Shown here: positions 2,141 through 27,974 of the stretch, in pieces | Numbering within the stretch: position 1 is the first letter of the stretch | How the letters are laid out: each line of letters begins with the position of its first letter | IMG/VR virus record: IMGVR_UViG_3300017963_003027 | Coordinates: 1-27,974 of that record | Direction: 5' to 3' (one strand) | DNA: 27,974 nt | Source: a virus | Translations under genes and position numbers: made by a program | Notes under the pieces: model-generated | The model's database searches: none | What the model was told of the DNA's origin: nothing | What the model saw: the letters and a program-made list of their open reading frames with translations, nothing else

Positions 2141-2667
2141 TGGATAGGCGCTTAAAAATGAATTGGAATTGGCGAAGATGGAGCGTGGGGTTTAGTTTTG
2201 CAATAAGCTATAGCGAACCGAGGGCCTATGCGTTCGGTGTTTCAATTGGGCCATTCTTAATAAAAGCTATGACTCACCCTAAACGATTTTCTTATGTAAC
2301 AGATAAACTTAAAGCTGAGAACGCCAGGTACAGGAAAGCATTGCACGAAATAGTAGAAGAAGCGGGTGATATAAGCGAACCCCCTGCGCACCTGCAAATG
2401 TGTCAATCTATAGCTCGGCGGGCACTGAAAGGCGGTGAATAAATGGACAAAGACAAAATGCCGTTCCTTGAACCCTTTAGTACTGATTGCGAGCCGTGTC
2501 ATGCACCAGATTGCCCGCACACAAAGCAGTGCATAATAAGACTACGAGGCGAGAACAAAGACCTGAAAGAGCGTATTGAAATGGCGGTTAGCTACCTGCC
2601 AGAAAGCCCAGATAAGGCAAAAGGATTTTTAATACCTGTGCTGGTGAATAAAAGAAAGGGCGGTGAG
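2127..2667 (+). repeat. Repeated gene-junction sequence AAAGGCGGTGAATAA
   Basis: The sequence recurs at the ends of consecutive small genes, at about 2127-2140 and 2428-2442. A related copy, AAAGGGCGGTGAG, lies at 2655-2667 without the stop. Each copy encodes K-G-G-E and also contains the SD for a following start, so the junction couples stop and restart. It looks like a shared cassette boundary rather than chance. Confidence 0.5.
2140..2442 (+). CDS. Unknown 100-aa protein
   Basis: It starts in the TAATG overlap with the preceding stop and uses the SD (AAAGGCGG) located in that gene's last codons. The N-terminal half is aromatic and may form beta strands (WNWRRWSVGFSFAISY, AYAFGVSIGPF). The C-terminal half is helical and charged (DKLKAENARYRKALHEIVEEAGD), like short coiled-coil proteins common in phages. 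It ends in KGGE, the same as its left neighbour, through the same repeated junction sequence. I do not recognise a family. Confidence 0.6.
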   Translation: MDRRLKMNWNWRRWSVGFSFAISYSEPRAYAFGVSIGPFLIKAMTHPKRFSYVTDKLKAENARYRKALHEIVEEAGDISEPPAHLQMCQSIARRALKGGE

Positions 2668-2706
2668 CCACAATCCAGCCGAGTGCCCGGAAGAATTAAG
2701 GATTAG
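2443..2706 (+). CDS. Small Cys/His protein
   Basis: ATG 2443 directly follows the previous TAA, with an AAAGGCGG SD in the preceding gene's end. The 87-aa protein has a cysteine cluster near residues 16-30 (CEPCHAPDCPHTKQC) that could hold a zinc ion, followed by a helical segment (RLRGENKDLKERIEMAV). A KGGE motif appears near residue 73 where the two upstream genes stop, after which this protein continues for 14 more residues. It may therefore be a cassette whose original stop was lost. Function unknown; a small zinc-dependent DNA or protein-binding role is possible. Confidence 0.55.
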   Translation: MDKDKMPFLEPFSTDCEPCHAPDCPHTKQCIIRLRGENKDLKERIEMAVSYLPESPDKAKGFLIPVLVNKRKGGEPQSSRVPGRIKD

Positions 2707-2717
2707 GAGGGTGGGGC

Positions 2718-3418
2718 TATTTTGACTGACCAGATAATACAGGGCGACTGCTTGGAAGTTATGAAAGATATTCCAGATAACTCTGTGGATTTGGTTTTGA
2801 CTGACCCGCCGTATGGGATAAATTACAACAATGAAAGGCTTAATCGGCCAAGTGGTAACAAATTTCAAGATATACAAAATGATGATATGGTTATGGATTT
2901 TAGTTTTTTGCTTAATCGAACAGGAACAACAGTTGTTTTTGGTGCAAATAACTTTGTTGACCAACTGCCTTTTTCTGGACGGTGGATAGTGTGGGACAAA
3001 AGAGTAAATCTAAAAGCCGATTTTGTCCTGGGTAGTCCGGTGGAATTGGCGTGGGTTAATAAAAAACAAGGGTACTTAAAGTTGTACAGGGTCGCACACT
3101 ATGGATTTGTAAATGCAGACCGTAGTGAGAGCAAAAAAAGATTCCATCCAACACAAAAACCCGTGGACTTAATGAAACTTATAATACGGGATTACAGCAA
3201 ACCCAATGACCTAATCCTCGACCCCTTCTGTGGTTCAGGCACAACCTGTGTAGCTGCAAAGATGTTAGGTCGTCATTACATAGGCATAGACATATCTGAA
3301 AAATACTGTGAAATTGCCCGCAAGCGATTAGAGGCGACAGAAAAAGGTATCACGGTCAAGGAGTTAGAGCAAGGTCAAGGGGTGTTATTTTGACTGACCA
3401 GATAATACAAGGCGACTG
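2718..3418 (+). repeat. 33-bp direct repeat at the 5' ends of the two methyltransferase genes
   Basis: Bases 2718-2750 and 3386-3418 are identical except at one position (2742 G, 3410 A), with an offset of 668 bp. Each copy includes the last bases before the TTG start and encodes the first nine residues (MTDQIIQGD). Similarity declines sharply afterwards, so the pair is either a recombination junction or a partly conserved duplication. Confidence 0.8.
2722..3393 (+). CDS. DNA adenine methyltransferase (N6/N4 class, beta order)
   Basis: This 223-aa protein transfers methyl groups from S-adenosylmethionine to DNA. The catalytic motif IV DPPY is at 28-31. FHPTQKP is at 141-147, and the SAM-binding motif I (DPFCGSGTT) is at 167-175, followed by YIGIDISEKYCEIA. 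This IV-before-I order is the beta class, and DPPY usually goes with N6-adenine. The target-recognition part is short, as in many phage orphan enzymes. The start is TTG 2722, with GGAGG upstream; the identical TTG start and first nine residues of the next gene support it. The stop overlaps the next TTG. No restriction endonuclease gene is nearby, so it probably protects phage DNA or alters regulation. Confidence 0.93.
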   Translation: MTDQIIQGDCLEVMKDIPDNSVDLVLTDPPYGINYNNERLNRPSGNKFQDIQNDDMVMDFSFLLNRTGTTVVFGANNFVDQLPFSGRWIVWDKRVNLKADFVLGSPVELAWVNKKQGYLKLYRVAHYGFVNADRSESKKRFHPTQKPVDLMKLIIRDYSKPNDLILDPFCGSGTTCVAAKMLGRHYIGIDISEKYCEIARKRLEATEKGITVKELEQGQGVLF

Positions 3419-4814
3419 GATAAAAGTTATGAAGAGCTTGCCTGATAAGTCTGTGCACTGTTGCGTAACCAGCCCGCCATATTGGGGCCAACGCAATTAC
3501 GGTGTTGACGGTCAGTTGGGATTAGAAAAAACACCAGAAGAACACATTGAAAACTTAGTCGCCGGTTTTCGCCAGGTTCGCCGGATATTGCGGGACGATG
3601 GTGTTCTTTGGCTGAATTATGGTGATAAATACAATTCAAGCTCTCAGCACAACACGCACGAGGGGCTTAGGCCCGCTGATAGATATACCGAGAAGCATGA
3701 CGAGGAATGGCCGGGGCATCGCAAGTTGTTGGCAAATCTTCAGCCCGGCAATCTTATCGGCCTTGCCTGGCGTTTGGCCTTGGCCTTGCAGGCCGATGGT
3801 TGGATACTTCGTTCCGATATAATCTGGGCAAAAGCGGTAAGTTTCTGTGAAACTTATTGCGGCTCGTGTATGCCTGAAAGTGTATCAGGTTGGTATTGGC
3901 AACAGCACAAGGTTGCTAAGTGCCCGGAGTGCGGGGCCTTGTCATCGTTTAAGAAAAGGGTTTGCAAGGAATGTGGCTGGACCAAACCAAAGACGCGGAC
4001 CGCAGCGGGCGAGATAGAGGGCTTTAGGGAACATAGCGGATACAAAATCAAAGAGGAGGTTGAATGGGTCGATTGTCCCGGCTGTCCCAAATGCACACCA
4101 AACGGCGGTTTAGTCCTGCGAAAAGGCTCCTGGAGGCCGACCCGGGCGCACGAATATTTATTTCTTTTGACAAAGACGAATAATTACTTTTCAGATATGG
4201 ATGCAGTGAGGGAGGCTCATGCAGGGCCAGAACGAAGTGGAAAACACGAAAGCAACAATCCCCACTCAGGACGACTTGATGATGAAAACAAACAGCAGGC
4301 TGCCTTTGTAGTCGCAGAAAGAAATTACAATCCTTCCGGTCGCAATCTCCGCGGCGTATGGACAATAGGTACACAGGCATTTCCAGAGGCTCATTATGCC
4401 ACGTTCCCAGAGAAGCTGATAGAACCCATAGTCAAGGTATCTACAAGCGAAAAGGGTTGCTGCCCTGACTGTGGGGCACAATGGGCGCGGGTGGTGGAGA
4501 AGGAGCAAGTTAAACGAGAAAGACCGGCGGACAAAACAGACCGGCACAACCAGGGCGAAGGCGTCAATTCTTGTGGCAATACTGTGGCTGGTGCCAATTC
4601 CACCACCATCGGCTGGCGTCCCACCTGCAACTGTGGCAAAGAACCTGTACCTTGCACGGTTTTTGACCCGTTTATGGGGGCTGGAACGGTAGGGTTGGTA
4701 ACTTATAAACTTAACCGTTATTATCTCGGCGCGGAATTGAGCGAAGAATATATGCAGATAATCAAAAACCGTATCGGTGAAGAAAAAGACAAATACGCTT
4801 TGCTTGAACAGTAA
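3390..4814 (+). CDS. DNA methyltransferase with inserted zinc ribbons (N4/N6 class)
   Basis: This is a second, longer methyltransferase (474 aa) starting at TTG 3390, overlapping the first. Motif IV is TSPPYW at 27-32, typical of N4-cytosine and some N6-adenine enzymes. Motif I is DPFMGAGT at 426-433, followed by YYLGAELSEEYMQII. Between them lie several CxxC pairs (CGSC, CPEC, CKEC, CPGCPKC, CPDC, CNC), forming probable zinc ribbons within a long target-recognition region, and RAHEYLFLLTKTNNYFSD, a common segment in this family. The first nine residues equal those of the upstream methyltransferase except for coding differences after residue 9. The two probably have different DNA targets. Confidence 0.93.
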   Translation: MTDQIIQGDWIKVMKSLPDKSVHCCVTSPPYWGQRNYGVDGQLGLEKTPEEHIENLVAGFRQVRRILRDDGVLWLNYGDKYNSSSQHNTHEGLRPADRYTEKHDEEWPGHRKLLANLQPGNLIGLAWRLALALQADGWILRSDIIWAKAVSFCETYCGSCMPESVSGWYWQQHKVAKCPECGALSSFKKRVCKECGWTKPKTRTAAGEIEGFREHSGYKIKEEVEWVDCPGCPKCTPNGGLVLRKGSWRPTRAHEYLFLLTKTNNYFSDMDAVREAHAGPERSGKHESNNPHSGRLDDENKQQAAFVVAERNYNPSGRNLRGVWTIGTQAFPEAHYATFPEKLIEPIVKVSTSEKGCCPDCGAQWARVVEKEQVKRERPADKTDRHNQGEGVNSCGNTVAGANSTTIGWRPTCNCGKEPVPCTVFDPFMGAGTVGLVTYKLNRYYLGAELSEEYMQIIKNRIGEEKDKYALLEQ

Positions 4815-9240: not shown

Positions 9241-11094
9241 GTGTCTGGATGGGCGGACGCCAACCGCCGCGTGGTAACGGGCGCAGAGCAGGGGCCGTGG
9301 CGGACGGACAGGGTACCGTACCTGAAAGATGTTATGGATGCTTATATCGACCCGGAGGTCGAGGAAATAACCATTACAGGGCCGGCCCAGTGCGCGAAAA
9401 CCGAGGCGGTGATTAATATGATGCTTTACAGTATCGATTGTGACCCGGTGCCGTGCCTGTATATTACCGATACCGATGCAAACAGTAATTATATATCAGA
9501 CGACAGATTAGAACCGACCATACTCGGTACGCCGGCAACGGCAAGGCACGTTACCGGCAGGCCGTGGGATATGAGTTCAAAGGAAAAGCGGCTTAACAGA
9601 ATGAGTATCTATTTCGGCTCGTCGCAAAGTGTTTCGAGCCTGGTGTCAAAGGCGATAGGCCGGTTGTTTGTCGATGAAACGGACAAATATAAATACACGG
9701 TCGGCCGGGAGGGCAACCCCATCCGGATGGCGATGCGAAGGGGCCAGACCTTCCAGGCGGCCGGCTATTTTAAGGTGGTGTATTTGTGTACGCCTACGAC
9801 GGAAGACGGTTTTATTAACCAATCTTACGAAAAGTCAAACAAGCTCCAGTATTTTACACCCTGCCCGAGGTGCGGTGAATTTATCAGGATGGAATTTGGC
9901 CAGTTGAAAGTAGAGCCGGCGAAGATGCGGGATGCGGATATTATCAGAAAAAAAGAATGTGTTTATTATGAATGCCGGTTATGCGGCGGCAGAATCGAAC
10001 AATATGAGCGGTTTGATATGACAGACGCCGGTGTGTGGGTGCCGGAAGGGCTTAAAATAGATGCCGGCGGCGATTATATTTTATTTGACGCGAAGGGTCG
10101 GCGGGTGATGGCGAGCGGAAGGCCGAAACGAGGGCGGCGGCATGTCGGTTTCTGGATAGGCGAGATGATAAGCCCGTGGATACCGTGGCATGAGATGACG
10201 GCGGAATGGTTCGAGAAGAATACACCGGAGGGAATAGCGCTCGGCGAACTTCGGGAGTTCAAAAACCAAGTGCTGGCGCAGGTATGGACCGAGGAGGCAA
10301 TTGACATTGAGCGGCATAAACTCGCCGAGCACATCGGGGACTTCAGCAAAGCGACCGTGCCTTCCGATTGCAAGGTATTAATCGGCTCGGCCGATTATCA
10401 CAAAGGCCACGCCGGCAATATTACTATTGTTTACGAGGTCCGCGGTTTCGGTTACGAGGGCCGAAACTGGGTCGTATCGAGCGGCAGCCTGACGAGTTGG
10501 GAGGCGTTTGAGAACGTGGTGCTAAACGCCCCCTGGGAATGGAGCGACCCGGATAAGACCGACAAGAACCTGACTGTTCGTATCGTCTTTGTCGATGCAA
10601 GTTTTGGTTCGCCGGATGTGTTCGATTTCTGCCTGCGGCACCCGGGCAGGTGCTGCCCTGTCCGCGGCAAACAATATCAAAGATCGCCTGTGATTGCAAC
10701 CGGTCTTGAAAAAACTGCGCACAAAAGATTTCAGAACCGAGGACTGATTTTGTATTGGGTGGACACCACTTTTTTCAAAAACCAGGTTACCGGCTGGGCC
10801 GCCGCCGAGCCGGGCGACAAGAGACAGACCGAATATTACGCCGAGATACCGGACACGTATTTCACTGAATTTACGAACGAGCACCGCGTAAAAGAGCGCG
10901 ACAAAAAGACGGGGCAGGTCAAGTTTGTATGGCGACCGGTCGTTGGTGGCCGCCCGACTCACCACCTCGACACGGCGGTTTATGCCGCGGCGGCGGCGTT
11001 CCATCTGGGCGTTTACCGGATGAGACCGCCAAGGCCAACGACAAAAGGTCCGCAAAAACCAAAAACCAAACGGAAGATAAGAACTAAGTATTAG
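9241..11094 (+). CDS. Terminase large subunit (GpA-like)
   Basis: Using GTG 9241, the first canonical start, the protein is 617 aa. Walker A is GPAQCAKTE (47-55), a variant of the GpA motif; Walker B is LFVDET (142-147). Paired cysteines at 208/211 and 245/248 form a zinc ribbon. The C-terminal nuclease has aspartates D385 (SADYHKGH), D452 (VFVDASFG) and D577 (HHLDTAVYA). It packages DNA into the capsid with ATP and cuts it. The GTG has no SD, and the frame is open upstream to the small-subunit stop. That upstream stretch would encode protein-like sequence (WKPLERSAWEPPPDIT), so the true N-terminus is probably longer. Confidence 0.95.
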   Translation: MSGWADANRRVVTGAEQGPWRTDRVPYLKDVMDAYIDPEVEEITITGPAQCAKTEAVINMMLYSIDCDPVPCLYITDTDANSNYISDDRLEPTILGTPATARHVTGRPWDMSSKEKRLNRMSIYFGSSQSVSSLVSKAIGRLFVDETDKYKYTVGREGNPIRMAMRRGQTFQAAGYFKVVYLCTPTTEDGFINQSYEKSNKLQYFTPCPRCGEFIRMEFGQLKVEPAKMRDADIIRKKECVYYECRLCGGRIEQYERFDMTDAGVWVPEGLKIDAGGDYILFDAKGRRVMASGRPKRGRRHVGFWIGEMISPWIPWHEMTAEWFEKNTPEGIALGELREFKNQVLAQVWTEEAIDIERHKLAEHIGDFSKATVPSDCKVLIGSADYHKGHAGNITIVYEVRGFGYEGRNWVVSSGSLTSWEAFENVVLNAPWEWSDPDKTDKNLTVRIVFVDASFGSPDVFDFCLRHPGRCCPVRGKQYQRSPVIATGLEKTAHKRFQNRGLILYWVDTTFFKNQVTGWAAAEPGDKRQTEYYAEIPDTYFTEFTNEHRVKERDKKTGQVKFVWRPVVGGRPTHHLDTAVYAAAAAFHLGVYRMRPPRPTTKGPQKPKTKRKIRTKY

Positions 11095-14683: not shown

Positions 14684-15397
14684 ATGAGCCAAGCATGTGA
14701 TTCTCCAAAATCTTTTACTGCCGGCGAAGCCTTGGCGGATTTTCGGCGGGTGAAGTTTAATTCGTCATCAGCGGTCGTTTATGCCGATGCCGGAGAGATA
14801 GGAATCGGGGCAACACTCCAGGACGTGGCAAACGCAGCACATGCAGCCATCCAACTGGATAACGCCGGCGGCACGATGAAGGTAACGGCGGCGGGTGCAA
14901 TCGCGGCCGGTGCGAGGTGTTTCCCGGCGGCGGACGGCAAGGTTTCGGCCGTACCCTCCGGGGCAAGCGTTGGTATTGCAATGGAGGCGTCAACGGCGGA
15001 CGGTGACATTATCGAAATGATGCCGGTACAGGAACACCTGGATTGGCAGGGTCTGACATTTGAGGAAATCGACGACGACAAGACCCTGGACGCCCAGGAT
15101 GCCGGTAAGGCCTTTTATGTTACGGCCGACGCAAAGACCATCACGCTGCCGGCGACGGACGTCAATCTCGGCCCCATCATTATCATCAACGGTGTGGCAG
15201 ACGGCGGAGCCGCCGTGAATATCAGCCCGAACGCAAACGACCTCATTAAAGGCCCGGACTTCGACGGCACCGACAACAAGGACCATATCAACACGAAGGC
15301 AACAGCCGTTCTGCACGATTTCGTCAAAATTCGCGCCGATGGCGCCGAGGGATGGTGGGTCGAAGAAACCCGCGGAACGTGGGCCACCGAAGGTTAA
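14684..15397 (+). CDS. Capsid decoration protein (DUF2190-type) with C-terminal extension
   Basis: ATG 14684 has AGAAGGAG upstream. Residues 20-110 match the DUF2190 capsid-cement pattern: VVYADAGEIGIGATLQDVANA, GAIAAGARCFPAADGKVSA, and SVGIAMEASTADGDIIEMMPVQ. This is the lambda gpD position, where trimers stabilise the expanded head. The rest (115-237) is an additional beta-rich domain (AFYVTADAKTITLPATDVNLG, AAVNISPNANDLI, GWWVEE) similar to beta-sandwich domains attached to phage surface proteins, perhaps for outward display. The protein is followed by a strong terminator hairpin before the capsid gene. Confidence 0.8.
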   Translation: MSQACDSPKSFTAGEALADFRRVKFNSSSAVVYADAGEIGIGATLQDVANAAHAAIQLDNAGGTMKVTAAGAIAAGARCFPAADGKVSAVPSGASVGIAMEASTADGDIIEMMPVQEHLDWQGLTFEEIDDDKTLDAQDAGKAFYVTADAKTITLPATDVNLGPIIIINGVADGGAAVNISPNANDLIKGPDFDGTDNKDHINTKATAVLHDFVKIRADGAEGWWVEETRGTWATEG

Positions 15398-15522: not shown

Positions 15523-15560
15523 GTTGCCCACGCAAAACTTTTTTAAGAAGGAGTAAAATT

Positions 15561-16508
15561 ATGATTCAGCAAACGACTTACGCAGTGCCGAGAGAGGATT
15601 TAGGCGAGGCCCTGCACGAGTACAACCCGGCATCGGACGGTTTTATCGCACAAGAGATACTGCCGGTCCGAGTGGTGAAGAAAAAGGCGGCGACGGTAAG
15701 CGTCGTAATTCGTGAAAATCTCAAGCGGGCCGATGCAATTCACGCCAACGGTTCGGCCTTTCATCGGATTACCATGACAACCGAGGACCTGGCTTACGCT
15801 TGCAAGGATTACGGACTCGAAGGCCCGCTCACCGATGATGACAGGGAAAACTTCGACAATGACTTTGATGCGGAACTCGAAACGACGATGCACGTCGAAA
15901 GGAGTCTGCTGATTGAACAAGAGATTCGAGTCGCAGCCAAAGTTTTCAACACTACAACCTTTACCGGTGCCGCCCTCTATACCGACGTCAGCAGCGCCCC
16001 CTGGGACGCCGCGGGAAGTGGGGCAATCGGCCATGTCGCGGATGCGCGGGAAAAGGTTAGGAAAAACACTGGATACGCAGCCGACTCGATGGTAATCGGT
16101 CCGGTTACCCTGAACAATTTGCTCAAAAACACAGCAATATTGGGCAAGTTTCCCGGCGCAACCATCATCACAGAGGCGATGCTCAGGGCAAATCTGGCTG
16201 GTATTCTCGGCATACAGAACCTTTTTGTCGGCAACGAAATCTACGACTCAGCGATTGAAGGCCAATCGTTCAGCGGGGCGGATATTTGGTCCGATGACTA
16301 TGCCCTGATATTCAAGAGGCAGGAAGGCCCGGTATCGAGTGGCGGTCTGGGGCGAACGATCCTCTGGGGTCGCATGAGTCCGAACAACATCACGGTTGCT
16401 TCATACCGCGAGGAACAAACCGAAAGCGACATTTATCGCGTTCGTCATTACCTTGACGAAAAAATATTCGACCCGTATTTCGGACATCTTCTGAAAATTG
16501 ATGCTTAA
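15561..16508 (+). CDS. Major capsid protein (HK97 fold)
   Basis: ATG 15561 has AAGAAGGAG 9 bases upstream, the strongest SD in the window, as expected for the most abundant virion protein; an upstream in-frame start at 15429 would run through the terminator. The 315-aa product has features of the lambda E-like capsid group: ASDGFIAQEILPVRVVKK near the N-terminus, a DDRENFDNDFDAELETTMHVERSLLIEQEIRVA helix, ADSMVIGPVTLNNLLKN, and the C-terminal SDIYRVRHYLDEKIFDPYFGHLL. It forms the head shell. It follows the decoration gene as in lambda D-E. Confidence 0.9.
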   Translation: MIQQTTYAVPREDLGEALHEYNPASDGFIAQEILPVRVVKKKAATVSVVIRENLKRADAIHANGSAFHRITMTTEDLAYACKDYGLEGPLTDDDRENFDNDFDAELETTMHVERSLLIEQEIRVAAKVFNTTTFTGAALYTDVSSAPWDAAGSGAIGHVADAREKVRKNTGYAADSMVIGPVTLNNLLKNTAILGKFPGATIITEAMLRANLAGILGIQNLFVGNEIYDSAIEGQSFSGADIWSDDYALIFKRQEGPVSSGGLGRTILWGRMSPNNITVASYREEQTESDIYRVRHYLDEKIFDPYFGHLLKIDA

Positions 16509-16588
16509 TCGCATATCAGGGCGTACCAGTTAACCAACACCTGATTGCAAATCATAACCTTTGGTTTGGCAGGTTTGATGATATAGGT

Positions 16589-16619
16589 GGCGGGGCCGGG
16601 CAACCGGCCCGGCGCCGCC
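16589..16619 (+). other. GC-rich stem-loop after the capsid gene
   Basis: GGCGG (16589-16593) and GCCGGGC (16595-16601) pair with GCCCGGC (16607-16613) and CCGCC (16615-16619) around a single G-G mismatch and a 5-base loop. There is no T-run, so it is more likely an mRNA stabiliser or processing hairpin than a terminator. The gap 16509-16642 holds no gene. Confidence 0.6.
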
Positions 16620-16642
16620 GGAATCAACGGAAAGGACTTGCA

Positions 16643-16864
16643 ATGGACTCTCTGAGCGAGCAGGACAAGGAATGGATTCGGTTGACCGCGCGAGAGTTGG
16701 CGTTTCAGGCGATAAAAGAGACGCTCAGCGTACATATTCAAAGCTGCCCGCACGGACTGGCGATCATGAAGGCCAAGTGGCTGATTATCGGTGTTTCGAT
16801 CGGCCCGATGCTGGTCGGCGGCGGCGCCGGATACGCCCTGGCAAAACTGTTTGCGACAATGTGA
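16643..16864 (+). CDS. Small protein with one C-terminal membrane segment
   Basis: ATG 16643 has AAAGGA 8 bases upstream. The 73-aa product begins with a charged helix (LSEQDKEWIRLTARELAFQAI), passes HIQSCPHG near residue 32, and has one hydrophobic segment (WLIIGVSIGPMLVGGGAGYALA, about 46-67) near the C-terminus. This layout is seen in small phage membrane proteins of the XhlA/holin-accessory type, but no family is certain. It opens the accessory block between the head and tail genes. Confidence 0.6.
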   Translation: MDSLSEQDKEWIRLTARELAFQAIKETLSVHIQSCPHGLAIMKAKWLIIGVSIGPMLVGGGAGYALAKLFATM

Positions 16865-16892
16865 TCTTGAAAGGTTAAAGGAAACCTGCGCG

Positions 16893-17057
16893 ATGGAGTT
16901 TCCGGCAAAAGAATTTTACGAAATTAATCGCGTTCTGTTCCTGGCGTCCGGCGAGTGCAAAACCGAAGAGCAAACATCCGCCTGCCAAAAGGCAAACGAA
17001 GCTGTTGCGGCGGCGGCGGAAAAAATAAAAGAGTTTTTTGAAATATTGAATAGTTAA
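16893..17057 (+). CDS. Small helical protein, 54 aa
   Basis: ATG 16893 follows TAAAGGA with a slightly long spacer. The protein is 54 aa, with a helical, alanine and lysine-rich C-terminal half (ACQKANEAVAAAAEKIKEFF) that may form a coiled coil. Two cysteines flank the middle. It is 14 bases before the phosphoesterase gene. I do not recognise it. Confidence 0.5.
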   Translation: MEFPAKEFYEINRVLFLASGECKTEEQTSACQKANEAVAAAAEKIKEFFEILNS

Positions 17058-17071
17058 GGGAAATTTGTGCG

Positions 17072-18019
17072 ATGGCTTTTCCAACAATAGCGACAATTGC
17101 TTCAGATTTACATGGGAGCACGGAATCATCCGGGTCAGGTCCGGGCGATAGGTCAGGATTTATTCGGCACTATGGGTCAAGAGACCGCAGGCTCGGCGAA
17201 ATCGTATCAGTCGCAAATAGCAGCAGTTCGGATTTATTGGTTCTTGCCGGCGATAACGTGGATAGTGATTGTGCGGACGGCAGCAAGTTGTCGAATTTTA
17301 CAAGTATGATTAATTACTTGGATGCAAATTTGAATTGTGATTTTATAACCACCATCGGAAATCATATTTGGACACCCACATCTCCGCCGTGGGATGGTGA
17401 AGGAGACGCTCCTTCCATGTCGGATTATTTTGACGCCCTTGACGCTTCAACGAGCGAGGGGGCAAAGGCAAACTATTACGGGCCGGATTCCGAGGCTTAC
17501 TCTTTTTCTTACACGGACATCAACGGTATGTTATGGGTAGTGGTGTTATGCCCCGTGCATACATTTTTTGAGCAGGATGACCCGTATGATTATCTCGATT
17601 GGCTTGACACAAGATTGCAGGCAGCGGCTTCTGCCGGAACACCCTGTTGCGTAGTGACTCATGTTCATCTTTGGCAGAACTCGAACAACTCGAATCCGAA
17701 CACTCTGCGGATTAGCGACACGGCGTGGTCGTCCTTACAAACCATATTTGACGATGCAGATACGTTGCAGTGTGTATTTGGCGGGCACCAGCATGCGGGG
17801 GGAGCTTGGATGAAAAGGAAAGGGGTGTGGTTTATCGATGTTGAGGGTTCGGTTTCGATGCCACCGAACCAGACAGATACAGCCAACGCGTATATGGTAG
17901 TAACCATAAATCCTCAACAAATTTGGACTCCAAACGGAATGAAAGCTCAGGTTAGGGTTGTACCTTATGGGTTGTGCAGGGTCAATAAACCAGAATACGA
18001 CAAGTTCATTGTATGCTAA
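17072..18019 (+). CDS. Calcineurin-like metallophosphoesterase
   Basis: The 315-aa protein has the full metal-binding set of the calcineurin-like phosphoesterase fold: D12-x-H14 (SDLHGS), G60-D61 (LAGDNVD), G96-N97-H98 (TIGNH), H197 in VVTHVH, and G238-H239-Q-H241 (GGHQHAG). It would use two metal ions to cut a phosphoester, but the substrate cannot be told from the sequence. There is no signal peptide. Phosphoesterases of this type occur in phage tail regions, where targets may be host surface polymers, and also as soluble enzymes acting on nucleotides. ATG 17072 has AAGGGA upstream with a long spacer. The Cys-rich gene overlaps its 3' end. Confidence 0.9.
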   Translation: MAFPTIATIASDLHGSTESSGSGPGDRSGFIRHYGSRDRRLGEIVSVANSSSSDLLVLAGDNVDSDCADGSKLSNFTSMINYLDANLNCDFITTIGNHIWTPTSPPWDGEGDAPSMSDYFDALDASTSEGAKANYYGPDSEAYSFSYTDINGMLWVVVLCPVHTFFEQDDPYDYLDWLDTRLQAAASAGTPCCVVTHVHLWQNSNNSNPNTLRISDTAWSSLQTIFDDADTLQCVFGGHQHAGGAWMKRKGVWFIDVEGSVSMPPNQTDTANAYMVVTINPQQIWTPNGMKAQVRVVPYGLCRVNKPEYDKFIVC

Positions 18020-18263
18020 TTTGATTAACCTTGGATGGCGGCGAGATATAAGCCATTCAAAATATTCAAAGGAGCTACATGAGTTTTTGATAGATAACTG
18101 TATTTGCCGCATGGACTGTCCGCCGACCGGCCCATGCTGCCCTAAAAATTGCAAACATCTTGGGCCGAATGGTTGCAAATTAGAAAGAAAAGACCGCCCC
18201 TATGTATGCTTGCACGCAATGTGTTCATATTCGTTCAGGAGATTATTAAATGATACAACTTAA
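17967..18263 (+). CDS. Cysteine-rich small protein
   Basis: I start at ATG 17967, preceded by TTAGGG with a 9-base spacer, which overlaps the phosphoesterase's last 53 bases in another frame; a TTG at 18021 is the alternative. The C-terminal half is a dense cysteine cluster (CICRMDCPPTGPCC, CKHLGPNGCKL, RPYVCLHAMC) holding about ten cysteines, with a C-C pair and a final C-x3-C. This resembles zinc or iron-sulfur binding cores such as the YkgJ-type pattern, without clear identity. It may act with the adjoining phosphoesterase, or may be an independent small metalloprotein. Confidence 0.6.
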   Translation: MGCAGSINQNTTSSLYANLINLGWRRDISHSKYSKELHEFLIDNCICRMDCPPTGPCCPKNCKHLGPNGCKLERKDRPYVCLHAMCSYSFRRLLNDTT

Positions 18264-19005
18264 TACAGCATCGTCAGCAAAGGATTATGACTGTACGTCA
18301 GAAGTTGAATTAAGGGTTGATGATACAACCACTAACTTCCAAAACACGACCGGCAGGGCTATCCAGCCGGTGATAGAACTGGAAGTTACAGCTGTAAAGA
18401 CGGACTATCGATTTACAAGCGGTGCAGTCGTTAAGTTCAGACTGTATATCAGCGATGACGGCTTAAAATCCAACGGCAATAAGGTAGTCTTTAATCAAGG
18501 AAACACAATCGCTGAATATATAGAATATACTGTCGGTGCCGACTTCAGCCCATTGATTATGCTGCAATTTGGCGATTTTGTATTCGGAACCTCCAAATAC
18601 ATGTTTATCACGGTCGAAAGCGACAATGTAAATGATGATGATGTACAGATTGGCAACTTGAAAATATACGACCGCACCTGTGCCACTGAGTACTCATCAA
18701 CTGGCGGGCTACCGAGAGTTGACACCAAGACCGTACTTGACGACACGCCATCTGGGGATAGCGACTTTCAAGCCGCCTGTGATTTGGCTATAAAAGCATT
18801 AGAGCTTGACCATTTGATGAGTGCCGCATGTGTTTCTGACGACATAACAACTAATGTGGTTGATAATTCTGTTATAGCTAAAATACTCGCTGTTGGTGGG
18901 GACATTAGCGATTTTACAAACAGCCTACACTCGCTCGAAGGCATTATAAACTATTTGCAGTCAGACGAATTTGCTCGAAAAATCGCAAAAAAAATCCCAA
19001 GATGA
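18250..19005 (+). CDS. Phage structural protein, beta-rich with helical tail
   Basis: ATG 18250 overlaps the Cys-rich gene by 14 bases and has AGGAG 8 bases upstream. The first about 160 residues look like a jelly-roll or carbohydrate-binding type beta sandwich (VELRVDDTTTNFQNTTGRAI, FGTSKYMFITVESDNVNDDDV). The C-terminal helical part contains ALELDHLMSAACVSDDIT and a VVDNSVIAKILAVGGDISDF pattern, followed by SLHSLEGII. That LDHL / DNSVIA / SLE pattern recurs in tail or fibre proteins of environmental phages. A role as a virion surface component is inferred from that pattern and from the next gene. Confidence 0.6.
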   Translation: MIQLNTASSAKDYDCTSEVELRVDDTTTNFQNTTGRAIQPVIELEVTAVKTDYRFTSGAVVKFRLYISDDGLKSNGNKVVFNQGNTIAEYIEYTVGADFSPLIMLQFGDFVFGTSKYMFITVESDNVNDDDVQIGNLKIYDRTCATEYSSTGGLPRVDTKTVLDDTPSGDSDFQAACDLAIKALELDHLMSAACVSDDITTNVVDNSVIAKILAVGGDISDFTNSLHSLEGIINYLQSDEFARKIAKKIPR

Positions 19006-19017
19006 TAGGGGTCGAAA

Positions 19018-21759
19018 ATGAAAAAGCTAATTATAACTATAGTTTGTTGTTTACTGGCGGCTCAGGTATTAGCGTCAAATGAAATCCGGATGCCAAACTT
19101 CCCATCTGGCGAAACGCTCTACGCCATAATCCGCAACGCAGCCGGCCAGGCGTGGGACCCTTCGGATCAGGCCTTTGAAAACTGGCCGGACCGTACCGAC
19201 GATGGCGACAGCGCAAAACAATACGATATTTCTATGACAGATAAATCCGCCGATATGTACGTCGGCGACTTCGATTCCAACATATCGGCGGGTAGATACT
19301 ATATCCAGATATGGTTACAAGACAGCACCGACCCGAATGAGGTCGATGATGACCTTGTCGGGCTGCGTGAAATCGTATGGAACGGCTCTGCCGAGGAATA
19401 TGTAATTGATTCGAGCGGACGGGTCGATGTCGGCGCAGTGGGCGGAACCGCACAGACGGCCAACGACAACGGCGCGGATATTAACGCAATCCTGGCCGAT
19501 ACCGCAGCGGTCGATACCACAGCCGAGATGCGTACCTTTTTGACCGGCGGCGACACGGCGGTCAGCACGGTTACAACCGCCGAGGTCAACGCCGAAGTTG
19601 ACAATGCACTTAATACAGCAGTGCTTGGTTCGCCCACCAACAATTCTATTAATGAACGCATAAAATCAATTGATGATAAACTGCCGGGTAAATCCTTTCT
19701 GGCTGGTTCGGCGGACGCCGACGGCGGTTGGGACCAGGATTATTCTGACATGTGTAAGGGCGCGATTTGGGACGCTGAAACCAGTCAATGTCTGCAATCA
19801 GGAAGTATGGGCAAGCGGTTGACGGACATATTTAACGATACCGCCGAGATAGGCGCCGCAGGTGCCGGGCTTACCGACCTTGGCGGCATGAGCACAACGA
19901 TGAAAGGGCAGGTAAACGCTGAGGCCGACACTGCAATCAGCGATGCGGCCCTTGCAACGGCGGCGGCCATTGCCACAATCGATACAAACGTCGATGCTGT
20001 GCTTTACGATACAGGCACTACTTTGAATGACAAGATAGACGTAATCGACACGAATGTCGATGACATCGAGACCGACACGGGCACTACTTTACCGGCGACA
20101 CTTTCCACAATGAGCACAAACATCGATGACATCGAGACCGACACGGGCACTACTTTACCGGCGACACTGGCAACAATTGACGATAACGTTGATGATGTTC
20201 TGGTCGACACGGGCACCACTTTACCGGCGGCAATTTCCGGAGTTGAGGGAAAGGTTGATACGGTTGACGGTGTGGTCGATTCAATTCTCACCGACACCGC
20301 CGAGATAGGCGCTGCCGGCGCCGGTCTTACCGACCTTGGCGGCATGAGCACAACGAGGAAAGGGAAGGTCCACGCTGAGGCCGATACGGCGATCAGCGAT
20401 GCAGCCCTTGCCACGGCAGCCAACCTTGCAACGGCCAGCACAAATATCGATGCCGTGCTGGTTGACACCGCCGAGATAGGCGCTGCCGGCGCCGGTCTTA
20501 CCGACCTGGGCGGCATGAGCACAACGATGAAGGGGCAGGTAAACACCGAGGCCGATACGGCGATCAGCGATGCGGCCCTTGCAACGGCGGCCAACCTTGC
20601 GACTGTCGATGGAAATGTTGATGATATTGAATCGGCGGTAGGATCGCCGGTTGCCCTCGACTCCGGTGCGGCAACACTGGCCGGTATGCTTACAAAAATT
20701 GCCGACGACAACGGTGGCGCCGATTTTGATGCGACAAACGATTCGCTTAAGGGCCTTCGGGCCTGGGGCGATGTCAACTGGGGAGCTGGAGCTGGGACTT
20801 ACCTGTTAAGCACAGACGTTGCGACCGGCGATACGACAACATCATTTACAATGACTGACGGCGTGGCCGCCGACGATGCCTACAACAACGGTATCATCGC
20901 CGTTCAGGATGCCGGTGACAGCCATTGGGAGGCTCGCAGGATAAGCGATTATACTTCCGGCAAAGTTATCACCGTTGATACGGCATTCAGTTTCCCACCC
21001 GCAGAGTCCGACACCGTCAGGATTATTTACGGCATGGCGATGAGCGGCTCGGGTACTACACCGGCGGCGGTGTGGGCGTACGGGACAAGGGTGCTCACCG
21101 GCGCCGATAACATTGCCGCTCCGATTGCCGATGCGGTGTTTGACGAGACCGCAACCGGGCACACCGATGCGGGCAAGGCCGGAGCCCAGATATGGACCGA
21201 CATTGATGCAATACTGACTGATACCGCAACCACCCTGCCGGCTTCACTTGCAGCCATCGACAGCGACACCGGTGATATACTTGTTGATACAGGAACTTCA
21301 CTGCCCGCTTTGCTTGCAGTAATCGGCACGAATGTCGATGACATTGAAACGGACACGAGCACCACTTTGCCGGCGACACTTTCGTCAATGGATACGAACA
21401 TCGACGCGGTACTGGTCGACACGGGTACCACGCTTCACGGTTTTATTGATACCGAAATCGCTGCGATCAAGGCGGTGACGGACCTGTTCAGCTTTACCGG
21501 CAACGATGTCAAGGCCACCCTGGACGGGGAAACAACCGCGTTAAGTTCGACCGGCCTGAATAATATCCCGATAACCGACCCGGCGGGCATCGCCGATACC
21601 TGGCCGGAAATGTCTGTGCAACTTTGGAGAAGGTTCTTCAAAAAAATTGATCGCACCACGACACAAATCCGCACCTACGACGACTCCGGCTCAAACGTGA
21701 GGACGACACAGACGGTTTCGGACGATGGGACGACAACGATTGTAGGAGCGGCTCAATAA
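19018..21759 (+). CDS. Repeat-rich tail fibre-like protein with signal peptide
   Basis: The 913-aa protein begins with a Sec signal peptide (KK then LIITIVCCLLAAQVLA, likely cut before SNE). Residues 22-130 form an Ig-like domain (TLYAIIRNAAGQAWDPSD, GRYYIQIWLQD). The middle holds three copies of a 57-residue unit (AEIGAAGAGLTDLGGMSTT) and many 22-residue units (DDIETDTGTTLPATL) with I/V/L spacing that suggests a trimeric stalk. A beta domain near 590-680 ends with IIYG, then VWAYGTRVLTG, more 22-residue units, and a C-terminal strand-rich tail (TQIRTYDDSGSNVRTT). Such units are typical of environmental phage fibres. The signal peptide is unusual for a virion protein. The stop overlaps the next ATG (TAATG). 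Confidence 0.75.
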   Translation: MKKLIITIVCCLLAAQVLASNEIRMPNFPSGETLYAIIRNAAGQAWDPSDQAFENWPDRTDDGDSAKQYDISMTDKSADMYVGDFDSNISAGRYYIQIWLQDSTDPNEVDDDLVGLREIVWNGSAEEYVIDSSGRVDVGAVGGTAQTANDNGADINAILADTAAVDTTAEMRTFLTGGDTAVSTVTTAEVNAEVDNALNTAVLGSPTNNSINERIKSIDDKLPGKSFLAGSADADGGWDQDYSDMCKGAIWDAETSQCLQSGSMGKRLTDIFNDTAEIGAAGAGLTDLGGMSTTMKGQVNAEADTAISDAALATAAAIATIDTNVDAVLYDTGTTLNDKIDVIDTNVDDIETDTGTTLPATLSTMSTNIDDIETDTGTTLPATLATIDDNVDDVLVDTGTTLPAAISGVEGKVDTVDGVVDSILTDTAEIGAAGAGLTDLGGMSTTRKGKVHAEADTAISDAALATAANLATASTNIDAVLVDTAEIGAAGAGLTDLGGMSTTMKGQVNTEADTAISDAALATAANLATVDGNVDDIESAVGSPVALDSGAATLAGMLTKIADDNGGADFDATNDSLKGLRAWGDVNWGAGAGTYLLSTDVATGDTTTSFTMTDGVAADDAYNNGIIAVQDAGDSHWEARRISDYTSGKVITVDTAFSFPPAESDTVRIIYGMAMSGSGTTPAAVWAYGTRVLTGADNIAAPIADAVFDETATGHTDAGKAGAQIWTDIDAILTDTATTLPASLAAIDSDTGDILVDTGTSLPALLAVIGTNVDDIETDTSTTLPATLSSMDTNIDAVLVDTGTTLHGFIDTEIAAIKAVTDLFSFTGNDVKATLDGETTALSSTGLNNIPITDPAGIADTWPEMSVQLWRRFFKKIDRTTTQIRTYDDSGSNVRTTQTVSDDGTTTIVGAAQ
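19840..20640 (+). repeat. Tandem coding repeats inside the fibre gene
   Basis: The long unit beginning ACCGCCGAGATAGG starts at 19840, 20296 and 20467. The last two are 171 bp (57 codons) apart and the first is 456 bp earlier. A shorter unit of 66 bp (22 codons) includes a perfect 46-bp direct repeat, 20057-20102 and 20123-20168. Near-identical DNA, not only protein, indicates recent duplication or ongoing homogenisation. More distant units continue at 21180-21440. Confidence 0.9.
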
Positions 21760-22211
21760 TGGCAGGAACCGACAGGATTGACATTGCCGATATTGACGAA
21801 ATAGCACCACCGTTCGATCTGGACGGCGGCGAATCGCCCGCCGCTGTTACGCCGACTATCGAGGCAGAAAGTGAGTTCGACCAATTGTGTGTCGCCTCGA
21901 TTGACGACTTCGAGCCGTTCTTCGAGACGGTTACGATTTACCCCGCCTCCGGCGGCAGCCGCGAAATTACAAGGGCGATCGTACACAACCGCCTGTTGCC
22001 TCAGAAACTTGCCGGCGTGCCTGGCGCCTCGGCCCCTTTGATTATTGTAGAGGTGCCAAACGATGCGACTACCGGATATGCAAGTTACGAACTTAACGAT
22101 GGCAGAGATGAAATTGAACTGCCCGTCCGTCTGGGCCAGACGGCCCAGCGCCGCAGGATATTGAGATTGTTAAGTCACGATTACGCGTGGTGTAAATTAG
22201 AGGTGAGGTAA
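21759..22211 (+). CDS. Head-tail attachment protein, gpFII-like
   Basis: The 150-aa protein starts in the TAATG overlap and ends by overlapping the next ATG by one base. Its middle (DDFEPFFETVTIYPASGGSREITRAIVHNR) has the pattern of FII-type stopper proteins, in which a beta barrel contacts the portal side of the tail. The N-terminal about 45 residues are acidic and probably flexible. The position directly before the Z-like gene matches lambda FII-Z-U-V. Sequence similarity is limited, so the call leans on the pattern and context. Confidence 0.65.
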   Translation: MAGTDRIDIADIDEIAPPFDLDGGESPAAVTPTIEAESEFDQLCVASIDDFEPFFETVTIYPASGGSREITRAIVHNRLLPQKLAGVPGASAPLIIVEVPNDATTGYASYELNDGRDEIELPVRLGQTAQRRRILRLLSHDYAWCKLEVR

Positions 22212-22843
22212 TGGCAACCGATCCCGTGGTTGAGGTAAAGTTTGAAGAGCAAAAGTTAAAGGCAGTCGCCCGCCTGCTTCGCGGCATACCGAACGGGATG
22301 AACCTCGTAATCCCGCCGGCAATCAACCTTACCGCCACAACCGCCCGCGCCTGCCTGGCCCGAGACCTTAAGGAAGACGTGAACCTTAAAATATCCGCTA
22401 TCAAAAAACGTATTATATTGCATAGGGCGAATAAAAAAAACTGGAGGGCCAGACTTCGACCAAGCAGAAAAGGGATACCTTTGATACTTTACGGTGCACG
22501 GCAAACAAAAAAAGGCGTCACTTATAAGGATGTAGAAGAACAAAGAGTTCTTATGGAAGGCGCATTTATACAGACGATGCCGATAACCGGGGCAAAACAA
22601 AAAAAGGGTCACAAGGGGGTATTTGAACGCGACCCAGATGATCTTTTTAGTACGGGTCGCGACACAAAGGGAAGGGTTCGAAAGGGCCGTTTGCCTATAA
22701 AAGAGTTGTATGGTGTTTCGCTGGCATGGTCTTTTGAAAATATTGGACAAATTAGAAATAAAACAATGGCCGAAACAGGGGAAATACTTGAAAAAAATAT
22801 CGACAGCAAGGTTGCCTGGCTTTTATCAAGGAGGGCAAGCTGA
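22211..22843 (+). CDS. Minor tail protein Z-like (tail completion)
   Basis: The 210-aa protein has the layout of the GPZ family: an N-terminal helical segment with basic residues (RLLRGIPNGMNLVIPPAINLTATTARACLARDL), the LKISAIKKRIILHRANKKNW run, IPLILYGARQTKKGVTY and a C-terminal RLPIKELYGVSLAWSFENIGQI, which recalls the family's LPI-x-E/K-L-x-G-P/V-S motif. It is needed to finish or stabilise the tail end before joining. The start overlaps the preceding stop and the stop overlaps the next ATG (TGATG). Confidence 0.8.
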   Translation: MATDPVVEVKFEEQKLKAVARLLRGIPNGMNLVIPPAINLTATTARACLARDLKEDVNLKISAIKKRIILHRANKKNWRARLRPSRKGIPLILYGARQTKKGVTYKDVEEQRVLMEGAFIQTMPITGAKQKKGHKGVFERDPDDLFSTGRDTKGRVRKGRLPIKELYGVSLAWSFENIGQIRNKTMAETGEILEKNIDSKVAWLLSRRAS

Positions 22844-23322
22844 TGGCAGAGCCGATAGCAGAACTGATTGCACAGAATATCAAGGCAGCAATCGAGTCGG
22901 TCAACGCCGGCGAAGTTGTCGAGGGCAACGCGTATCACTACACGCTTAAGCCGCTCCGTCCGCTTCGCGTTGATTATGAAAATGTTAAATGGAACAATCA
23001 CGATGTGATAATCCGCCAGATGGATTCCGGGCCGTCCGCGGCGGCCCAACTTAGAGTACGGCGGGTACTCAACTTTGCGCTTTCGGCGATTTGCATCGAC
23101 TCGATCGACTCGTCAACCACCATCGACACCCACCAAAACCGCGTTGCCGCCGATATCGAAAAGGCGCTGCAGGTCGATACCACACGCGGCGGTTACGCCT
23201 TGTTCACCGAGGTAGGCGATGCGGTTCCGTTTGAAAGCGACGAACTCGAACTGACGGGGATACTCATCGATGTTGCCGTCCATTACTCGATAATGGAAAA
23301 AGACCCTTACACAAACGGTTAA
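22843..23322 (+). CDS. Tail terminator-like protein (gpU position)
   Basis: The 159-aa product starts at ATG 22843 in a TGATG overlap with an AAGGAGG upstream. A helical N-terminus (LIAQNIKAAIESVNAGEVV) is followed by alternating strands (HYTLKPLRPLRVDYENV, RVRRVLNFALSAICID), a helix (HQNRVAADIEKALQVD) and final strands (ELTGILIDVAVHYSIMEKDPY). This is the alpha/beta arrangement of gpU-type tail terminators, which stop tail-tube growth at the head-proximal end. Its place between Z and the tail-tube gene supports this. Confidence 0.7.
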   Translation: MAEPIAELIAQNIKAAIESVNAGEVVEGNAYHYTLKPLRPLRVDYENVKWNNHDVIIRQMDSGPSAAAQLRVRRVLNFALSAICIDSIDSSTTIDTHQNRVAADIEKALQVDTTRGGYALFTEVGDAVPFESDELELTGILIDVAVHYSIMEKDPYTNG

Positions 23323-23344
23323 AAATTAAAAAGGAGTATAAAAA

Positions 23345-24253
23345 ATGCTTACACGCAAAAGAGTCGCAAAGGTGGCCCTTGAAAATACGATGGGTACAAA
23401 GGTGGCCGGCACCCAGGCGGTCAATATTTACGACATGGACGGGCCGGTATCCACCGCCGAATATCTAAGGCGGGCCGGGACAGGTCTTTATACGGGCAAT
23501 ACTGTTACCGGCGTTCACGGCGCAGAGACCGGACGGGCTTCGGGCAGGATACCGCTCATCGGGACGGGTTCCAGCGGTATGGGCCTGGCGGCGCTGATAT
23601 TTTTACAGGCCGGCTGGCTGGTCAAATCTTCCGAGACTTATCAGGTATCGAGCAACGCGGCGAATTGGAAGGCGTTAAGTTTCGATGCCTGGCTGGACGG
23701 CAAGAAAAAGAGCCTGTTCGGCGCTATGTGCAATCTGGTGCTAAATTGGGAGCGGGGCCGTCCGGAGGGTGCAATGCTGGATTTTGAGTTACAAGGTATA
23801 TTCTCATCGGTTACGGACGAGGCCCTGCCAGCGTTCAGCCCGGAGGACCGCCCGCCGATGCGGATGACGGCCTTTACTATTAATTCGGTTGCTAAAAAGA
23901 TTCACTCGCTGAGCCTTGACATGCAAAGCGAAGTAGTTCCGCGAAGCGACCCTAACGCCACGCAGGATGAGACCTTGCAGTACATCATAACCGACAACAG
24001 TCCGCAAATAACCATCGACCCGGAGGACGAACTTGTTGCAAGCTACGACTTTGACGGGATTCGGCAGGGCCGTACCGAGCACGCGATTGTCGCCACGTTC
24101 AGCGATGGGACCGACACTGTTACGGTAACGCTGCCAAAGGTACAACTCACCGAGTGTCCCGAAGGCGAACGCGAAGGGTTGAGCACCATCCAATATGTCG
24201 GCCAGTGCAATCATTCTTCGGGCGACGATGCAGTACAGATAGCAGTTACATGA
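23345..24253 (+). CDS. Major tail tube protein (gpV position)
   Basis: ATG 23345 is preceded by AAAAAGGAGTATAAAAA, which nearly matches the site before the gene at 27433. The 302-aa protein is beta-rich and consistent with a tail tube subunit: LTRKRVAKVALENTMGTKVAG at the start, LDFELQGIFSSVTDEALPAF (a common tail-tube stretch), and HSLSLDMQSEVVPRSDPNAT. The C-terminal part (ITIDPEDELVASYDFDGIRQGRTEHAI) looks like the second beta layer. It would stack as rings around the tape measure. Its size is somewhat above lambda gpV (246 aa) and there is no separate Ig domain. Confidence 0.82.
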   Translation: MLTRKRVAKVALENTMGTKVAGTQAVNIYDMDGPVSTAEYLRRAGTGLYTGNTVTGVHGAETGRASGRIPLIGTGSSGMGLAALIFLQAGWLVKSSETYQVSSNAANWKALSFDAWLDGKKKSLFGAMCNLVLNWERGRPEGAMLDFELQGIFSSVTDEALPAFSPEDRPPMRMTAFTINSVAKKIHSLSLDMQSEVVPRSDPNATQDETLQYIITDNSPQITIDPEDELVASYDFDGIRQGRTEHAIVATFSDGTDTVTVTLPKVQLTECPEGEREGLSTIQYVGQCNHSSGDDAVQIAVT

Positions 24254-27432: not shown

Positions 27433-27974
27433 ATGCGAAAAATATTATTAATTGGTTTGTTTTTAATTTTGGCGGCCGCCTCACCAGCTGCCACCGTCCG
27501 CTGGCTTGGCAACGCGACCGCCGTGGCGCAGGTAGAAAGATACGATGCCGGAACGGTGGAGGTGGGCGATATATTTACGCTGACCGTAACCGGACTGGAC
27601 GGTGTTACAAAGGCAATCAGCTTTACCGCCACGGCCGCGACCGCCGACAACGTGGAAGACGGCCTGGCTGCCGCATGGAACGCCTCGACAAATTCCAATT
27701 GCACCCCTGTTACAGCCGACCCGAACTATCATATTGTAATGACCGCCGATACGGCGGGCAATGCCTTTTCAATTACCGCCTCGACCACAGACGGCGGAGG
27801 AAACGACACGCAAACGCTGTCAAAAACGACAATTACAGCCAACGCCGGGCCGCAGGACTGGAGCAGCACCGACAACTGGTCGGGCGGCGCCCTACCCGGC
27901 GGCGCCGCAAGCCAGGATGTTTATATCAACGGAGCTACAATCCTGTACGGACTTGACCAGTCCGGAATATCAAA
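27433..27974 (+). CDS. Secreted-looking surface protein, 5' part only
   Basis: ATG 27433 follows AAAGGAG with a 10-base spacer. The visible 180 residues begin with a Sec signal peptide (RKILLIGLFLILAAASPAA), then a beta-rich domain (RWLGNATAVAQVERYDAGTV, GDIFTLTVTGLDG, SFTATAATADNVEDGLAAAW) and a DWSSTDNWSGGALPGGAASQ segment. That last segment is like the W-S-x-x-x-N-W motif near the start of autotransporter or PEP-CTERM type surface repeats. The gene is cut by the window end. A fibre or adhesin is likely; phage versus host origin cannot be settled here. Confidence 0.75.
   Translation, partial: MRKILLIGLFLILAAASPAATVRWLGNATAVAQVERYDAGTVEVGDIFTLTVTGLDGVTKAISFTATAATADNVEDGLAAAWNASTNSNCTPVTADPNYHIVMTADTAGNAFSITASTTDGGGNDTQTLSKTTITANAGPQDWSSTDNWSGGALPGGAASQDVYINGATILYGLDQSGIS

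Follow-up and report, generated by a model that had tools for sequence, protein, structure and literature searches.

We analysed a 27,974-base virus record (IMG/VR virus record IMGVR_UViG_3300017963_003027; hereafter the window, i.e. the whole stretch of DNA), the lists of its open reading frames (ORFs) being read with PHROG, Pfam and NCBIfam profile searches. Its genes are arranged in the order terminase, portal, head maturation protease, decoration/scaffold-like protein and capsid, followed by a block of additional genes, then by FII-, Z-, U- and V-like genes and the tape measure gene. The block, which is the subject of this study, consists of six tightly packed genes that fill positions 16643 to 21759, in the slot that separates the capsid gene from the FII-like gene (Table 1). 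Within it, consecutive genes overlap or are separated by at most 22 base pairs (bp), most of them are preceded by a Shine-Dalgarno-like sequence, and the stop codon of the last one, which encodes a repeat fibre, overlaps the start of FII. After refinement of the starts, the first gene was found to begin after a 134-bp leader and the Cys-rich gene to begin at an ATG inside the phosphoesterase gene. A preliminary description of this DNA had listed the ORFs of the block as we found them, except for the gene encoding a protein of 54 amino acids (aa), which it had overlooked.

Table 1. Features of the window in and around the slot between the capsid and FII-like genes
Feature	Position	Strand	Evidence	Remark
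Decoration/scaffold-like protein	14684..15397	+	PHROG phrog_673, 4e-13	
Major capsid protein	15558..16508	+	PHROG phrog_1005 major head protein, 2.3e-36	left border of slot
Leader	16509..16642	+	strong GC-rich hairpin, minimum free energy -54.3, z about -3.3 to -3.8	
73-aa protein, single C-terminal transmembrane segment	16643..16864	+	ORF	5' bookend
54-aa protein	16893..17057	+	start and Shine-Dalgarno-like sequence read; L024 homologue	
Calcineurin-like metallophosphoesterase	17072..18019	+	Pfam PF00149, 3.6e-8	
Cys-rich protein, about 98 aa	17967..18263	+	ORF	possible metal-binding Cys cluster
251-aa beta-rich protein	18250..19005	+	ORF; same-position 225-aa gene in L024	
913-aa repeat fibre	19018..21759	+	predicted Sec signal peptide (MKKLIITIVCCLLAAQVLA/S)	3' bookend, conserved C-terminal domain
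FII-like head-tail attachment protein	21759..22211	+	56% identity to L024, 37% to L034, 39% to L057	right border of slot
Z-, U- and V-like genes (neck, tail tube)	22211..24253	+	phrog_27, phrog_4204; synteny in L024, L055 and L058	linked to block

The preliminary description had recognised a lambda-like order on both sides of the block (E, then FII, Z, U and V), and this was supported by the matches of the capsid, Z-like and tail-terminator proteins and by an FII homologue. The gene at 22211-22843 had a PHROG match to Neck1/tail completion proteins (3.5e-26) and a weak match to Pfam Minor_tail_Z, and the one at 22843-23322 a weak tail terminator match. The FII-like protein of the window itself did not match Phage_attach (PF05354, lambda FII) in the Pfam scan; it was assigned because its counterpart in the relative L003 matched this family above the curated cut-off, and because it shares 37–56% identity with its counterparts in the relatives L034 and L024.

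Viral contigs and bacterial genomes were searched for relatives of the capsid. In about 27 of these, FII stood directly 3' of the capsid gene, or U was found within 1.0–1.5 kb or V within 2.0 kb of it. The distance from capsid to U was 6.3 kb in the window, compared with 1.0–1.5 kb in nearly all capsid relatives. The slot was empty in the closest relative (L003, capsid 69% identical), where the capsid gene is followed by FII, and in a Phycisphaerae genome (L034, capsid 50% identical) FII started 76 bp past the capsid gene. Another relative (L016, capsid 48% identical) had a filled slot, occupied by genes for a lipoprotein, a small membrane protein, a protein of 782 aa and a repeat fibre of 674 aa. 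The empty slots and the other genes found in L016 support the earlier view that the block is an insertion. In the complete genome of Candidatus Velamenicoccus archaeovorus, this capsid occurs at two loci separated by about 49 kb (L039 and L041, probably two prophages), both with an empty slot. In L004, a repeat fibre (9416-10303) is placed one gene later, after the FII-like gene rather than before it. Three virion proteins of the Phycisphaerae phage or prophage L034 (9251-9709, 11943-12434 and 12471-12896) have poly-serine tail ends.

A second view of the slot was provided by L024, in which the order is membrane protein, homologue of the 54-aa protein (L024 7210-7341; 43% identity across 44 aa, E 5e-7), phosphoesterase (25–28% identity), 225-aa protein, fibre (58%) and neck-tail genes (FII 56%, Z 45%, U 56% and V 58% identity to the window), the Cys-rich gene being absent from this block. 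The portal of L024 is barely related to that of the window (21%), and at the place of the window capsid there is a 720-aa protein, which can be read from its sequence as a putative protease-capsid fusion. The head sides of the two phages have nothing in common beyond the terminase and the C-terminal domain of the decoration protein (aa 121-237; 49% over 117 aa), their capsids being unrelated. Since the same block and neck-tail genes lie beside an unrelated capsid in L024, the capsid has been exchanged next to the block, which stays with the neck-tail module. The decoration-like proteins of the window (14684-15397), L024 (5961-6689) and L055 (2044-2838) have a common C-terminal domain, different N-terminal domains and unrelated capsids as neighbours, suggesting a domain-level swap of what is probably their exposed part.

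Searches with the fibre C-terminus and with V brought up two further phages that carry this tail module, L055 and L058. The slot of L055 encodes a small membrane protein, a predicted exported LamG protein (Pfam, 2e-15), a beta-helix protein (Pfam, 2e-10) and a short predicted exported fibre; that of L058 a small membrane protein, four further proteins (one LamG-like, 9e-7; most of them predicted to be exported) and a fibre. These two phages have capsids that are 88% identical and V proteins that are 65% identical, with different cargo in the slot: their DNA similarity ends at the end of the capsid gene and returns at V. The fibre of L055 keeps the N- and C-terminal regions of the window fibre and that of L058 the C-terminus. 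More distant V relatives (L060, L061, L062, L063 and L064) had no such block. L057 carries a tandem pair of V (tail tube) genes (2450-3379 and 3405-4337), and intergenic regions of L024 and L055 contain short DNA repeats near gene starts, translating as NVEHRT.. and EYRVSSIEYR...

The window, L024, L055 and L058 thus have a common layout: the block opens with a small membrane protein and closes with a fibre whose C-terminus is conserved, and the cargo enclosed by the two varies. The small membrane proteins that open the block in L024, L055 and L058, as well as that found in L016, are unrelated to the 73-aa protein of the window. The suspicion that this might be a swap locus, which was to be checked on the gene content at this exact position, was borne out: content differs between L055 and L058, and between the window and both L003 and L016. 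The slots of L016, L024, L055 and L058 differ in what they contain, and the opposite outcome, an invariant core lacking any insertion variant, was not observed. The notion of one block needs to be amended. It is a variable insertion, as proposed, yet it is not a single unit, because the type of its outer genes is constant and only the inner cargo is exchanged. It also goes with the neck-tail genes and not with the capsid.

The inner genes also stood out by their base composition, a change at the edges of the block that the preliminary description had suggested looking for. The G+C content at third codon positions (GC3) of the cargo averaged 0.14 below that of core genes on the same contig (12 vs 36 genes in four phages, p 9e-5). 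In each of the four mapped phages the cargo was below the core, only one of the 12 genes departing from this. GC3 of the outer genes was nearer to that of the core, except for the L058 membrane protein and the L055 fibre. This is in keeping with the cargo having been acquired recently, more so than the fibre. No source of the cargo DNA was found.

Among the products of the window block, the phosphoesterase is the best defined. It matched Pfam Metallophos (PF00149) with 34.5 bits for a cut-off of 21.5 (43.3 bits for its L024 homologue), and its motifs are complete (D12xH14, GDNVD 60-64, GNH 96-98, H197 and GHQH 238-241, corresponding to DxH, GDxxD, GNH, H and GHxH), the metal-binding D, N and H residues being invariant between the window and L024. 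Its structural model had a mean predicted local distance difference test score (pLDDT) of 47, and Foldseek matches to SMPDL3A, GpdQ and Rv0805 were of low confidence (11–15% identity); because of this score, they support the phosphoesterase superfamily only, and no substrate. Phage database searches gave no match for the phosphoesterase, and viral contigs gave no direct relative of it or of the 251-aa protein besides the same phage from another sample. The Cys-rich protein matched no family in the PHROG, Pfam and NCBIfam scans. The C-terminal tail of the 251-aa protein resembles the L024 fibre repeat (marginal BLASTP match, E 0.058). For the fibre there was no PHROG family, Pfam and NCBIfam matches were sub-threshold and unrelated, and tblastn found no match among 50,697 phage records. 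Compared with the same phage from the other sample (L030), the window showed 8 differences in 18,957 aligned bases, 5 of which are in the fibre gene; three of these (codons 447, 450 and 452) copy neighbouring repeat sequence and could be the outcome of gene conversion or of misassembled repeats.

What is surprising about the block is that its fibre carries a predicted export signal. Signal peptides were called with a simple rule-based scorer of the n-, h- and c-regions, and the fibre N-terminus was found to be a typical predicted Sec signal in the window, L024, L055 and L058. Predicted signal-peptide N-termini were present in 8 of 21 slot genes vs 8 of 182 other ORFs (p 3e-5), and several of the latter eight are probably false positives. 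The fibre leader is 31% identical between the window and L024 and the mature region that follows it 82%, as expected if hydrophobicity alone is kept in the leader. A tail-associated solenoid protein (window 27433-27974; L031 19356-20621; L059 14082-14963) has a signal in the window and L024 and none in L055.

As to transcription, a consensus scan of the leader (16509-16642) disclosed neither a promoter-like match nor a terminator-like site on the + strand, although the promoters of the host may differ from this consensus. The leader hairpin (approximately 16585-16622) was considered as a block-specific terminator or junction mark and rejected, as hairpins of the same strength are found 3' of capsid genes whose slot is empty, and as it has no T-run. 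Because of the tight packing, the Shine-Dalgarno-like sequences, the overlap with FII, the absence of + strand signals at the left border and the occurrence of the hairpin also at empty sites, the simplest reading is that the block belongs to the late operon.

Indications on the host came from L024, a prophage with host genes at one contig end, read as proA and proB. The flanking ProA is 73% identical to ProA of the Phycisphaerae metagenome-assembled genome that holds L034 and at most 48% identical to full-length Omnitrophota ProA; Omnitrophota were rejected as host of L024 on this basis, and its putative host is placed among Phycisphaerae-like planctomycetes. V homologues were present in 5 of 294 sampled genomes of the planctomycete phylum. 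The phage group of the window therefore probably infects Phycisphaerae-like planctomycetes, the host of the window phage itself being deduced from its relatives only. A phage infecting a Phycisphaerae strain in culture has been described (PMC10945688).

Taking these data together, we think it probable, from comparison of the sequences, that a permissive site separates the head genes from the neck-tail genes and that the block inserted there is a variable contact cassette. The presence of an exchangeable set of genes in the slot makes it look like an evolving contact module and not like a fixed core of the virus. From the position, the repeat architecture and the cargo families (LamG, beta-helix and phosphoesterase) we infer host contact or decoration, host contact being the most likely role. 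The genes of the block would be expressed late, on one transcript together with the head and tail genes. The conserved C-terminal domain would anchor the fibre, probably where head and tail join, with its N-terminal domain and repeats facing outside, and the cargo (the phosphoesterase here, LamG and beta-helix proteins elsewhere) might bind or modify the host envelope or the extracellular matrix.

Several observations weigh against this interpretation. A Sec signal normally directs a protein out of the cytoplasm, which argues against assembly of the fibre into virions there, and a contact cassette leaves unexplained how the signal fits with virion assembly. The phosphoesterase has no signal peptide, and fibre-like genes near the slot in L016 and L080 also lack one. 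Many of the empty-site relatives are Omnitrophota that are mutually related and form one clade, so that the count of about 27 overstates their independence. Finally, the fibre model, with a mean pLDDT of 37, was of too low a quality to reveal a fold or to serve in a fold search. The absence of a signal from the L055 solenoid and from the L016 and L080 fibre-like proteins suggests that the signal may be a trait of this lineage, added to proteins that are elsewhere ordinary virion parts.

Instead of being virion parts, the fibre and the other exported products could be secreted and target the infected or lysogenic host cell or its surroundings, e.g. by forming a coat on the cell, preventing superinfection or making the matrix looser so that virions are released, a possibility that we regard as rather unlikely. 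It would account for the Sec signals conserved on the fibres of four phages, the leader having diverged but stayed hydrophobic ahead of a mature region that is conserved, for the predicted export of nearly all of the L058 cargo, for the presence of LamG and beta-helix folds, which are common among extracellular proteins, and for the prophage state of L024. It is difficult to reconcile with the translational coupling of the fibre gene to FII, with the conservation of the fibre C-terminus together with the neck genes, and with the signal-less fibre-like genes of L016 and L080; the solenoid protein indicates, furthermore, that the signal may have been appended to virion proteins. A lysis-related cassette, in which the small membrane protein would be holin-like and the cargo would help to breach an unusual envelope, appears very unlikely: a small protein with one or two transmembrane segments does begin or sit in every block, and the L016 lipoprotein has a sub-threshold XhlA-like stretch, but no endolysin was recognised in the block, and the membrane proteins are not homologous to each other and match no holin family. 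Least credible is a mosaic junction without selected function, i.e. a head/tail recombination point with transient passenger DNA as cargo, since, despite the capsid swap that adjoins the block in L024 and the low GC3 of the cargo, the phosphoesterase has kept its catalytic residues at an overall identity of 28%, every reading frame is intact, the genes are tightly packed, and the same types of bookend recur in several phages.

If the block is a contact cassette, the slot marks the place where a little-studied group of phages changes its contact machinery but retains its neck and tail genes, and where recombination affects the capsid and the contact functions independently of each other. It is conceivable, though doubtful, that the head operon of planctomycete tailed phages encodes exchangeable fibres, lectin-like proteins and enzymes that are exported by Sec and act beyond the cytoplasm, either at the host surface or after being picked up by virions following export. 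Should the signal peptides work, tailed-phage fibres passing through Sec would break the usual assumption that virion fibres are assembled in the cytoplasm. The literature that we searched described no Sec-export route for tailed-phage fibres and nothing directly comparable on exported fibres or on hypervariable sites at this position. The block also provides markers for finding phages of Phycisphaerae-like planctomycetes, few of which have been described.

With respect to known systems, SMPDL3A, GpdQ and Rv0805 share motifs and a low-confidence fold with the window phosphoesterase, which differs from them in sitting in a phage head operon. The cultured Synechococcus phage S-LBS1 has a V homologue (25% identity) and an annotated tail fibre gene between its capsid and neck genes; neither this fibre nor the small genes of S-LBS1 matched the window block. 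Head decoration proteins and fibres such as T4 Hoc, phi29 gp8.5 and N4 gp17 are accessory, often Ig-like or coiled-coil proteins that are thought to help host attachment (PMC7602432), and the term 'signal peptide' is absent from that review. The fibre and cargo of the window would resemble them in role; no sequence match linked the fibre to known head fibre or decoration families in PHROG, Pfam, NCBIfam or tblastn searches of phage records. Like morons and other accessory genes, the block consists of extra genes between conserved structural genes, and its cargo differs from its neighbours in base composition, with a GC3 below that of the core in the four phages. Unlike morons, it has no promoter or terminator of its own that could be recognised on the coding strand at the left border by the consensus scan, with the above reservation on host promoters, and its cargo is enclosed, within the late operon, by outer genes of a constant type. 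A further parallel is the lambda-type head and neck (E - FI - FII - Z - U - V), which has the same flanking order, the identity of the Z-like gene being backed by PHROG and weakly by Pfam, and that of the FII-like gene by the Pfam match of its L003 counterpart. The lambda slot between E and FII is not empty either: it holds FI alone, whereas the slot of the window spans 5.2 kb and carries an enzyme and a predicted exported fibre.

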